From contig DUNT01000009.1 of NCBI GenBank assembly GCA_012839205.1, positions 1-35,518 of the forward strand: DNA of 35,518 nt, written 5' to 3'. The notes under the pieces were generated by a model. That model was not told the origin of the DNA. It did no database searches and saw only the letters and a program-made list of their open reading frames with translations. The position numbers were made by a program, and so were the translations under genes. The stretch is from Clostridiaceae bacterium. GTDB lineage: Bacteria; Bacillota; Clostridia; DSM-8532. Numbering within the stretch: the first letter of the stretch is position 1; every line of letters starts with the position of its first letter. Shown one piece after another: positions 9,239 through 14,265 of the stretch.

Positions 9239-10120
9239 TTAAGCTTTTTCAGGTATTTTATCCTTTCTTTCAAGAGTAGCAGCGTCTATAAACATTAGAG
9301 CCGTTAATCTCTGGAATATCAAAAGCACTATAACCTCAAAAAATGCAACTATAAAAAGGGCAAGAGCCGGGTTTTGCACGTCAATTGCAATGGTGTCAAG
9401 AACAAGACCAAGAAAATGTGGCCAGAGACCGTTGAAGATTACTCTCCTTTTACATCCCCTGGTTATATCCAGTGCCACTTTAAAATTCTTTATAATGCCA
9501 GTGTCAAACTCTATAATTAGCAAGTTTTTAAATATAAACAGCATATCAACAGCCAGTACAACGATTGGAAGTAAGGATAAAATTACTACAATTACAGGTA
9601 TAAAAAATGAAATGAATGCCGTTAACACAAATACGCATAAAATTGCAAAAGCAAAAATTCCGTAAAACAAAATATTAAAAACAATAATTTTAATCAGCTT
9701 TTTCAGGAAAAATACTGTTCTCTGTTTCAATGTAGTGTCCGGTTCGGTAAGGCTGTAATAGTAGAATACCCCATAATATGTTGCCAATATATATGCTACA
9801 GCTTTAATCAAAGCATAAATTATTACCACAATTAGCATGGACTCAAAAAATTTGTTTGCAGTTTCCATATTAATTAAGGAAAGATCCAGGGTTTTTGTTT
9901 CAACCTGTTCAATAAGATTTACACTTATTTGCTCGAAGTATAAAAAAGCATCTTCGATATAAGGTCGTGCATAAATATAACCGCCAAAAATAACAGCAAG
10001 TATTAAAATAAATACAATTTGGGCAACAACAGGTTTATCTACATCATGAAACCTGAATGATTCTCTCAGATAAAAAAAGATAGATTTAACTCTGCATCGC
10101 TGGCTTTGCTGTTTATCCAT
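9239..10120 (-). CDS. Uncharacterised multi-pass membrane protein
   Basis: I do not recognise this 293-residue protein. It shows a positively charged cytoplasmic-type N-terminus and about five or six hydrophobic segments, near residues 33-51, 93-117, 145-175, 175-200 and 255-275. Between the first two is a soluble stretch of about 40 residues, and the protein ends in a charged tail. The layout resembles general YciC/DUF-type inner-membrane proteins, without a motif that decides it. The ATG overlaps the end of rluB by eight bases and has GGGGGAAG before it, so it is translated with rluB. No catalytic residues can be named. Confidence 0.75.
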   Translation of the reverse strand: MDKQQSQRCRVKSIFFYLRESFRFHDVDKPVVAQIVFILILAVIFGGYIYARPYIEDAFLYFEQISVNLIEQVETKTLDLSLINMETANKFFESMLIVVIIYALIKAVAYILATYYGVFYYYSLTEPDTTLKQRTVFFLKKLIKIIVFNILFYGIFAFAILCVFVLTAFISFFIPVIVVILSLLPIVVLAVDMLFIFKNLLIIEFDTGIIKNFKVALDITRGCKRRVIFNGLWPHFLGLVLDTIAIDVQNPALALFIVAFFEVIVLLIFQRLTALMFIDAATLERKDKIPEKA

Positions 10121-10873: not shown

Positions 10874-10986
10874 TAGTTTTTTTATGTTTACTATTTTCCT
10901 AAACCACAACAGCACTAGCAAATAAATTATTATTACAATTGTCTACTTGGAATTATTAATACTTATCTTGACATTAAAGATTATAA

Positions 10987-11007
10987 ATATTAACCTGATA
11001 TTAATAT
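10987..11007. repeat. Inverted repeat upstream of the TIR gene
   Basis: ATATTAA and TTAATAT flank the seven bases CCTGATA, ending eight bases before the GAGGT ribosome site. A TTGACA at 10968-10973 stands just upstream but has no good -10 at normal spacing. It could be an operator, or chance in AT-rich DNA. Confidence 0.35.
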
Positions 11008-11026
11008 GGACAATTGAGGTAATAAA

Positions 11027-14000
11027 ATGAATTATTACAAATATGATGCTTTCATTAGTTACCGTCATACTATGCTTGATGCAGCGGTCGCAGAAAGGCT
11101 TCACCGGTTGCTTGAATCCTTTAAGATTCCAAAAAGCATTGCAAAATCCATCGGCAAAAAAAGAATACAACGAGTTTTCAGAGACAGAGACGAATTGCCT
11201 ACTTCATCAAATCTTGCCGAAAATATCACAGCTGCCCTGGAATCCTCCGAGTTTCTTATAGTTATTTGCTCTCCCAGAACCTCTCAATCACAATGGGTTT
11301 TAACAGAGATTGAGACCTTTAAGAAACTTCACGGTCAAGACAGAATTCTGGCTCTTCTAATTGAAGGAGAACCAGACGAATCATTCCCTGAACAGCTGCG
11401 TTTTATAAAAGAAGAAAAGGTTTTAGAGGATGGAACAGTTGTTGGAACTACTGTGGAAGTGGAACCACTTGCCGCAGATATAAGGGCTGACACCAGAAGA
11501 CAAATGTTCAAAAAACTTAAGACCGAAGTTTTACGCCTTCTTTCACCAATGCTTAATTGCAGCTATGATGACCTTAAACAACGGCATAAGGAACGCCTTA
11601 TAAAAACTGTGCTTACCACATGTATATCATTATCTGCATTTTTTATCGCTTTTGGCTCATTCAATGCATATCAGGCACTTGTTATAAACCAGAAATCTCA
11701 GGAAATTAACCAAAAAGCACAAGAAATAAATCAGAAAAACCTTCAAATCAAAGAACATATTAATCAGATCCAAATAAGCCAATCCAGATATTTGGCTGAT
11801 ATATCCAACAAATACTATGAAAGCGGTGACAGATACCGGGCTATTCTGGCTGCACAGGCAGCTTTACCCAAAAATCTTGACGACCCCGACCGCCCATATG
11901 TTCAGGAAGCGGAATATGCCTTATCACGGGCTTTAGGGGTTTATGAAGTTGATGGCCGTTTTGACGGTGATATTGTACTGGATCATAATATGCCTGTGAG
12001 ATTTTTAATAACCAGTCCTGACGGGAAAACTCTTCTTACTAGCACGACCGATGGATTTTTACATATATGGAATACTGAGGACGGCACCCTCTTAAGATCT
12101 GTTTTCACTGGATATTTCAGTGATGAATATAATACATATTTTATTGATGACAACTACTTTACTACTCTTTGTTATGATGAATCCAATGGTTACTACAACT
12201 ATTCCTGTTTAAATATTAATGGATCAATACTATGGCAAATTAAGATGAATTCGAGCTCGAAGGCGGCGTATAATCCCAATAAAAAGCTTTTGACTGTTTA
12301 CGAAAGTTTAACGTATGACTGGGATCAAAGAGAAATGGTATACTTAGTTGATGCTGTTACAGGTAATGAGCTTTTTTCTACTTCAATAGAAGATTTAATA
12401 AGAAACGCAGCGGCTGATGAATCTACGGATATCTATGTTAACTGCATAACTATGAATAGTGACTCAAGCCTCATCAGCTTTGGTACAAATAACGGTAAAG
12501 TCTTTACAATCGATAGTACCGACGGAAAGCTGATTAATACCCTTGTCACAGAGAACAAAATAGTGGAGAATATTCTATTCTCTGATGACGGATATATGAT
12601 TACCTCGTCTTATTATCTGGCTGATATAGATGAAATTGAAAAAAGCAATGAATGCCTGGAGATTTTCCCACCTCAAAGTAGCACCCCATCTTTCAATTGC
12701 GTCTTTGATGCTATTATTAAGCCTTACTTTTTACAGACCAAACCGTCAAAATTAGTTTTTATTGGGCAAGGGGATATAAATATTATTGATATAAAAACTG
12801 GCATGGTTGACTATGCTTTTATTAGAAACGAAAACATCCTTGATTATTGTATTTTAAATGACAGCATAATAATTACTTCAGACATGGACGGTAGTATTAG
12901 ATTCTCAACATTAAATGATAATATAACTGAGTTGGGGGATTTCAAAATCTCCAGAAATCAGCCTGTTAAAAATGTTGTATTTGCTAACAAAAAACTAATT
13001 TTTTCATTAGGATCCTCAAATAAAGTGTACTTGTACCGGCGGATCTCAAATGAAAGCCATGTACAGTTAGATGGTGACATCAATCCGTTTTCCGAGATTT
13101 TTTATTCTCCCGATGGCAGCCTCGCATTATGTTTTTCTACAGTAACTGATAATATTTCTATATGGGATGTTACGGAACGTAAGGCTATCATATCAAAATC
13201 ATTTAATGATGATATTTCTGATGTTTGCTTTATCAATAACGATACTATATTAGTTTGTTTTGAAAAAAAAGATGATACTCCGGCAAGGTTTGCAACAATC
13301 AGAACTAATGATTTATCTGTTATTTCTGAGAAACGCTTTAACGAAACAAGGTTTTGTATTAATAAGGATTCATCGGTTATGGCCAGATGTGAATATGACG
13401 GGATTTCCTTATACACATTGCCTGATATGACTTTTCTTACAAAAATTAAATATGAAATAGATTCCTCAGGTAGATTTATTCCCTGCTCTTTTACAAATGA
13501 TAACAAATTTTTTGCTGCAATCAAATCTCAAAACGCAATGATTATTGATATACAGACTAAAGATATCTTGCATAATTATAAAAGTGATATTCTCCGTTAC
13601 GGAGTAATCAGCGACGATGGAAAGCTCTGTGCCCTTGCTTTCAATGATAAAACAATTAAGCTGTTTGATGTTGATAATGCTTTGAAAGAAAGGGTTTTAA
13701 TTAATGATTTGCAATTGAGTATAGAAACTATGTTTTTAAGCCCGGACAATAGTTTATTATTTGTGCAGTTAGAAGACAACAGCATTTACATATATGACAC
13801 TGTAAACGGCAGTCTGAAAAAAGTTTTTAATAATGATATAATCGTCACCTCTCTAAAAACGATAAAATTCAGCCGGAATAATGACAAAATTGCTCTCATT
13901 ACCCTCTCAACTGCATGTACATACATCATAGATTCCCACACCCTTAATATACTCGCTAAACCTTTAATTAATGATATCAATAAGGATTTTTCCTACGTTT

Positions 14001-14140
14001 TGTCCCGGGGTGGTGTAATGGATAACAGCTTATACATGGTTCCTGTTTATACTCCTGAAATGCTATTGGTTGAAACAAATAGGCAACTAAACGGCAGAGT
14101 GCTGACCGAGGAAGAAAAAGCTGAAATGTTTATTAATTAG
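11027..14140 (+). CDS. Membrane-anchored TIR-domain protein with C-terminal beta-propeller (WD40-like) repeats
   Basis: A 1037-residue multidomain protein. Residues 5-130 are a TIR domain: it opens YDAFISYRH, has FRDRDELPTSSNL, and carries SQWVLTEIE, where Glu94 sits four residues after Trp90, the position of the catalytic Glu of NAD-cleaving TIRs. Residues about 192-214 form one hydrophobic helix. Residues 224-252 are heptads built on the unit QEINQKA, a likely coiled coil. A helical segment (RYLADISNKYYESGDRYRA, then ALSRALG) precedes about 730 residues of beta-rich repeats. The first is clearly WD40-like (SPDGKTLLTSTTDGFLHIW), and later ones are degenerate (ISIWDV, IKLFDV, IYIYDT). That is enough for roughly two propellers. 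GAGGT precedes the ATG. It stands alone between rluB and ychF, with no partner gene visible. TIR with WD40 is a known combination; function here (NAD depletion, signalling or scaffold) is unproven. Confidence 0.88.
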   Translation: MNYYKYDAFISYRHTMLDAAVAERLHRLLESFKIPKSIAKSIGKKRIQRVFRDRDELPTSSNLAENITAALESSEFLIVICSPRTSQSQWVLTEIETFKKLHGQDRILALLIEGEPDESFPEQLRFIKEEKVLEDGTVVGTTVEVEPLAADIRADTRRQMFKKLKTEVLRLLSPMLNCSYDDLKQRHKERLIKTVLTTCISLSAFFIAFGSFNAYQALVINQKSQEINQKAQEINQKNLQIKEHINQIQISQSRYLADISNKYYESGDRYRAILAAQAALPKNLDDPDRPYVQEAEYALSRALGVYEVDGRFDGDIVLDHNMPVRFLITSPDGKTLLTSTTDGFLHIWNTEDGTLLRSVFTGYFSDEYNTYFIDDNYFTTLCYDESNGYYNYSCLNINGSILWQIKMNSSSKAAYNPNKKLLTVYESLTYDWDQREMVYLVDAVTGNELFSTSIEDLIRNAAADESTDIYVNCITMNSDSSLISFGTNNGKVFTIDSTDGKLINTLVTENKIVENILFSDDGYMITSSYYLADIDEIEKSNECLEIFPPQSSTPSFNCVFDAIIKPYFLQTKPSKLVFIGQGDINIIDIKTGMVDYAFIRNENILDYCILNDSIIITSDMDGSIRFSTLNDNITELGDFKISRNQPVKNVVFANKKLIFSLGSSNKVYLYRRISNESHVQLDGDINPFSEIFYSPDGSLALCFSTVTDNISIWDVTERKAIISKSFNDDISDVCFINNDTILVCFEKKDDTPARFATIRTNDLSVISEKRFNETRFCINKDSSVMARCEYDGISLYTLPDMTFLTKIKYEIDSSGRFIPCSFTNDNKFFAAIKSQNAMIIDIQTKDILHNYKSDILRYGVISDDGKLCALAFNDKTIKLFDVDNALKERVLINDLQLSIETMFLSPDNSLLFVQLEDNSIYIYDTVNGSLKKVFNNDIIVTSLKTIKFSRNNDKIALITLSTACTYIIDSHTLNILAKPLINDINKDFSYVLSRGGVMDNSLYMVPVYTPEMLLVETNRQLNGRVLTEEEKAEMFIN

Positions 14141-14265
14141 TCAATCAATGCATCCCCATTTACCATTTGAGTTTTGTTTTTTTCTTCAGTATATTATTCT
14201 TTACTTTCCATAGTAATCACTAATCTCATATAAATAGCTTTTTCTTTTAATTTCTCTTTCACATA

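Follow-up and report, generated by a model that had tools for sequence, protein, structure and literature searches.

Animals, plants, and bacteria all have TIR proteins with known parts in immunity, and several described systems lie close to the one presented here. The ThsB protein of Thoeris has a TIR fold and a catalytic glutamate, as our protein does; the ThsB_TIR model of Pfam and the corresponding PADLOC models match our protein weakly, and a nucleotide made from NAD is the expected product. However, our protein adds a membrane anchor and propellers, it has no ThsA, and in its family the usual neighbor encodes a DHH phosphodiesterase. Animal Toll-like and IL-1 receptors are single-pass membrane proteins with the TIR domain inside the cell and the sensor outside, an arrangement that is also predicted here, but in our protein the TIR domain is N-terminal and propellers stand where the animal receptors have LRR or Ig domains; the likeness is one of layout and does not imply that the whole proteins share an ancestor. 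The phosphodiesterase that accompanies the receptor in relatives has the DHH and DHHA1 motifs of GdpP, NrnA/Pde2, and DhhP and is closest to them in fold; unlike known DHH-DHHA1 phosphodiesterases, it is extended at the C-terminus by about 180 residues and is genetically tied to a TIR receptor. In archaea, the DHH-DHHA1 nuclease MAD removes the cyclic oligoadenylate of CRISPR systems, and by analogy it sets a precedent for turning off a nucleotide signal of immunity with a DHH enzyme (PMC7854544). The literature that we searched, with many subscription papers outside our reach, yielded no description of a TIR-DHH pair or of such a receptor tied to a phosphodiesterase gene.

Here we describe a gene at positions 11027-14140 of a 35,518-nucleotide stretch of DNA from a Clostridiaceae bacterium (contig DUNT01000009.1), which we call the window. 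The explanation that we prefer, and to which we give about an even chance, is that the gene encodes a type II envelope receptor that spans the membrane once, has a Toll-like layout, and makes an NAD-derived signal, that a DHH enzyme is the probable off-switch, and that the window copy is an orphan kept by selection.

Domain architecture and predicted topology

The gene is divided as follows.

11027-14140, forward strand: whole gene, TIR / transmembrane / coiled-coil / tandem beta-propeller receptor of 1037 amino acids
11051-11401, forward strand: TIR domain, residues 9-125 (Pfam TIR_2, E 9.7e-11; weak TLR1 match in the PDB, E 6e-4)
11306-11308, forward strand: codon of Glu94, the glutamate conserved in TIR NADases (no variation among 89 distinct relatives; the same holds for W90)
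11402-11596, forward strand: family-specific extension from the TIR domain to the membrane, residues 126-190, with an EVEPLAADIR motif (alignment conservation)
11597-11665, forward strand: single transmembrane helix, residues 191-213, N-terminus inside by charge bias (hydropathy 1.89; low model confidence)
11666-11776, forward strand: coiled-coil heptads, residues 214-250 (read from the sequence; model helix 209-265; length varies among relatives)
11777-11956, forward strand: conserved helical linker ahead of the propellers, residues 251-310 (95% identity with the sister species, dN/dS 0.03)
11957-14050, forward strand: tandem beta-propellers of about 15 blades, residues 311-1008 (WD40-type Pfam matches, model, and PDB fold matches; dN/dS 0.25-0.31 in comparisons with the two nearest copies)
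14051-14137, forward strand: C-terminal tail with a GRVLTEEE motif (conserved in most full-length close relatives)

The original prediction had described a catalytic-type TIR domain with Glu94 in place, a single helix with heptad repeats, a long WD40-like propeller region, and TIR and propellers on opposite sides of the membrane, and the evidence agrees on each point, with the last of them a matter of predicted topology. A chance reading frame is ruled out by a single long conserved frame whose dN/dS is well below 1. The protein belongs to the TIR superfamily, its TIR_2 profile match standing at 42.7 bits against a cut-off of 28, with further matches to ThsB_TIR (7.4e-8) and TIR (1.1e-7). Glu94 and Trp90 do not vary among the 89 distinct family members of at least 600 residues, and in a Phmmer search of PDB sequences, where TLR1 and TLR6 are among the best matches of the TIR domain, Glu94 is paired, in a weak alignment, with the glutamate of the W..E motif of TLR1. 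This conserved W..E glutamate is the mark of a catalytic (NADase) TIR domain, and cleavage of NAD is predicted from it.

Hydropathy rises to transmembrane strength at residues 191-209 alone; the next best value elsewhere is 1.24. Over the 15 residues that flank the helix on each side, lysines plus arginines average 6.2 toward the TIR domain and 2.2 toward the propellers, and the N-terminal flank has the greater number in 88 of the 89 members; this positive-inside bias predicts a cytosolic TIR domain and propellers on the outer side. WD40-type propellers in general are more often cytosolic, which speaks against this arrangement. In an AlphaFold2 model built on a 36-row alignment (mean pLDDT 85), the TIR domain has its alternating strands and helices and the transmembrane segment is poorly modelled (pLDDT below 50 at 195-214), while residues 209-265 form one continuous helix, in which the heptads INQKSQE, INQKAQE, and INQKNLQ can be read from the sequence. 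The original prediction had left the blade count to a structure model, and the roughly 700-residue propeller region of this one contains about 60 strands, or roughly 15 blades, mostly at pLDDT above 85. A fold search of the PDB returned tandem WD40 proteins such as Utp21, Pwp2, and Apaf-1 as top matches; full-length TM-scores are low (0.2-0.3), so these matches back the fold class and not a close relative. The linker and the C-terminal tail may resemble STAND-WD40 conflict proteins.

Neighborhood and insertion site

The neighbors checked are all housekeeping genes (KARI, a TPP enzyme, DUF512, YceD, GlyA, RluB, YchF, ProV/W/OpuAC, GntR, IPP transferase, MutL, and MutS), and none of them is a Thoeris or CBASS partner, just as had been predicted for what was called the only accessory gene in a housekeeping region. 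No credible defence model was found among the neighbors in the window, and a defence island around the window was rejected, the matches to mad3 and mad8 being ABC-type ATPases such as ProV. Thoeris was rejected because no ThsA gene occurs among the checked neighbors, and CBASS because no cyclase does, the SAVED_TIR model being matched by the TIR part alone (residues 8-114); the top PADLOC matches are weak and likewise cover only the TIR portion. Adjoining rluB, at 9239-10120, is a gene for a 293-residue protein that has no Pfam match and is conserved in relatives.

Two further features concern the site itself.

10896-14263, no strand: approximate insertion relative to an empty rluB/ychF junction (empty sites in six relatives)
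10968-10973, forward strand: TTGACA, a candidate -35 element upstream of the gene, also found in the sister species (read from the sequence; only a weak -10, TAACCT, at a spacing of 17)

A consensus promoter scan of the region did no better than on shuffled sequence and did not single out the TTGACA. In six relatives (G002, G004, G006, G007, G011, and G024) rluB and ychF are adjacent, and among genomes with a visible junction just the window's genome and its sister G001 hold the TIR gene there. Other relatives hold it at different junctions, G002 retains a remnant, and G019 has a broken copy plus an intact one. The original prediction had proposed synteny as a check for a variable insertion; with the junction empty in these six relatives, that description holds in the window's genus, but in another family the gene belongs to a near-core pair.

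The DHH-DHHA1 partner in relatives

A single-protein query of genome contigs confirmed no relatives, but an alignment query of the same contigs found at least 502, from which 80 loci, mostly of Lachnospiraceae, were kept; with the window and five loci from related genomes, this gave 86 loci, with some redundancy, for clustering of the neighboring genes. Among the matches listed, a DHH-DHHA1 protein of about 505 residues is encoded at 58 of the 86 loci, and at 51 of those 58 it lies no more than 300 bp from the TIR gene. It precedes the TIR gene on the same strand at 40 of the 58 listed loci and follows it at 11, with five convergent and two divergent arrangements, and 39 of the same-strand pairs listed are separated by at most 25 bp or overlap. 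Such proximity, retained in several gene orders, argues for a functional tie. In some groups the synteny is fixed, as at about 16 of the listed loci, which lie upstream of one tRNA synthetase gene. The partner, absent from the window, is a DHH-DHHA1 phosphodiesterase by its motifs and predicted fold: it matches DHH (6e-17 and 1.1e-15) and DHHA1 (up to 6e-6) in Pfam with both catalytic motifs conserved, and its model (mean pLDDT 90) comes nearest to a T. maritima PDE, GdpP, NrnA/Pde2, and DhhP. The DHH family also contains nanoRNases and pyrophosphatases, so the substrate of the partner need not be the TIR product.

The association holds across whole genomes. The TIR family is present in 29 of 293 Clostridia genomes and a full-type DHH gene in 22, with both in 19, TIR only in 10, DHH only in 3, and neither in 261 (G168, with a weak and different DHH match, was omitted, and the G002 remnant was scored as TIR); Fisher p values are about 8e-20 per genome and 8e-7 by genus, but the genomes counted are related and neither value is corrected for ancestry. 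Within one family, the TIR gene occurs in 60 of 66 genomes and the DHH gene in 59, with both in 58, neither in five, DHH only in one, and TIR only in two, one of which (G337) holds a DHH gene cut at a contig end; in 52 of the 58 double-positive genomes the two lie on one contig within 6 kb. The TIR-DHH pair is thus near-core in this family. Two TIR genes that are full or nearly full persist without DHH (in G000 and G011), so there is no strict requirement for DHH. The expectation of a stand-alone gene fits the window copy and not the family, and the family is not all-in-one, since most relatives pair the receptor with DHH.

Simple phage defence is a weaker reading of the gene once the pair is seen to be near-core in one family. 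In its fullest form, which we consider rather unlikely, that reading would make the protein an abortive-infection receptor, in which phage adsorption or envelope damage leads the TIR domain to destroy NAD and growth stops, with the DHH protein outside the signal path, serving in housekeeping or as a guard. The literature has many TIR NADases in phage defence, within the window's genus the gene has a patchy distribution with duplicated or decayed copies (the G002 remnant and the broken copy of G019), the propellers evolve several-fold faster than the TIR domain, and a sister TIR pair adjoins Wadjet JetC/JetD in G008; however, presence in 60 of 66 genomes of a family is unusual for a phage-defence gene, phage records gave no matches, viral contigs gave 107 pattern matches of which none was confirmed, few copies lie on plasmids, and the weak, TIR-only PADLOC matches and housekeeping neighborhoods also count against it. 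A role in defence is possible, but neither the near-core status of the gene nor its absence from phage records favors it.

The same near-core occurrence with DHH, together with the fixed synteny upstream of the tRNA synthetase gene and near absence from phages and plasmids, would suit a sensor of the envelope or environment outside defence, whose TIR and DHH proteins set the level of a signalling nucleotide and so tune growth or physiology. Its molecular steps would be those of the envelope receptor that we prefer, and only the purpose would differ. Against it stand the patchy and decayed state of the gene in the window's genus and the fact that we know of no bacterial TIR protein with an established housekeeping signalling role, and we regard it as a doubtful, if possible, account.

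Probable loss of DHH and selection on the window copy

No DHH homologue was found in the window's genome, which is 99.7% complete, and the two-gene module is therefore missing there, whereas relatives have DHH. The DHH gene stands ahead of a carbamoyltransferase-type gene (argF/pyrB by sequence reading) in G001, G004, and G005; the window's genome keeps the latter gene and its downstream neighbor, with DHH gone from the site, and in G011 the TIR gene itself adjoins the same carbamoyltransferase-type gene, with no DHH. Since DHH is missing where sisters keep it, the simplest view of the window copy is that loss made it an orphan. It might then be a functionless remnant in decay, as the missing DHH and the gene remnants in relatives could suggest, but the full-length frame, the intact catalytic residues, and the substitution rates make this quite improbable. 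Against G001, overall dN/dS is 0.18, with 0.08 in the TIR domain, 0.03 in the linker, and 0.25 in the propellers, and for the TIR domain it is 0.06-0.08 against the two closest copies; the protein is therefore constrained, with the sensor part changing fastest. The window copy is still under purifying selection, and part of the divergence could pre-date the loss of DHH.

In the envelope-receptor reading that we prefer, the propellers outside would bind some ligand or sense a change in the envelope, the coiled coil would gather the cytosolic TIR domains, and these would cleave NAD via Glu94, giving a nucleotide signal or depleting NAD. In most relatives, the DHH-DHHA1 phosphodiesterase of the adjacent gene would remove the signal; in the window's genome, its loss would have left an orphan receptor retained by selection. 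In this scheme the anatomy, the charge bias, the conserved catalytic residue, the linkage and co-occurrence with DHH, and the lack of DHH in the window's genome are observed, whereas we infer what the TIR domain catalyses, which signal results, what DHH degrades, what the propellers bind, which effector responds, and what purpose the system serves. The broader proposal, of a bacterial Toll-like receptor system with a TIR signal and a dedicated DHH off-switch that is near-core in a Clostridia family and signals beyond phage defence, is one that we advance only tentatively.

In two genomes without DHH (G088 and G171), the gene adjacent to the TIR gene encodes a protein of 551-566 residues with a SLOG-like start, by sequence reading, and membrane segments. 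It resembles SLATT effectors in these segments and in a weak SLATT_3 match, but the match (best 4.7e-5) is under the curated cut-off and the protein occurs in only two genomes; proteins of this kind, as judged by sequence, are expected to be readers of nucleotide signals. Loci L222 (2413-6514) and L223 (6199-10338) show such a SLOG-like/SLATT-like membrane protein, a possible effector, adjoining a TIR-TM-propeller gene.

Other TIR genes were seen along the way. On contig C58 of the window's own genome (L027, 3962-7719), a TIR-TM-TPR protein of 603 residues lies beside a TIR-TM-PDZ protein of 447 residues; the former is of the active type, the latter is a pseudo-TIR that has lost both Trp and Glu, and the pair adjoins a Mur_ligase_C-like protein of 175 residues. 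Active/pseudo-TIR pairs of this kind also occur in G001, G011, G024, and G008, and in G008 (L036, 1-8047) the pair directly adjoins Wadjet JetD and JetC on the same strand. Another locus of G008 (L041, 1714-4818) encodes a TIR-TM protein with RHS/YD-type repeats where the propellers would be, so the outside module seems interchangeable. At L048 (11218-12738) the neighbor has a trypsin-like peptidase domain, and similar proteins occur at three loci.

If the link between receptor and phosphodiesterase is functional, Lachnospiraceae and related Clostridia would commonly carry a simple two-gene TIR signalling module with its own off-switch, whose signal, ligand, and eraser are directly testable, and orphan copies such as the one in the window would show how a TIR receptor behaves without its eraser.
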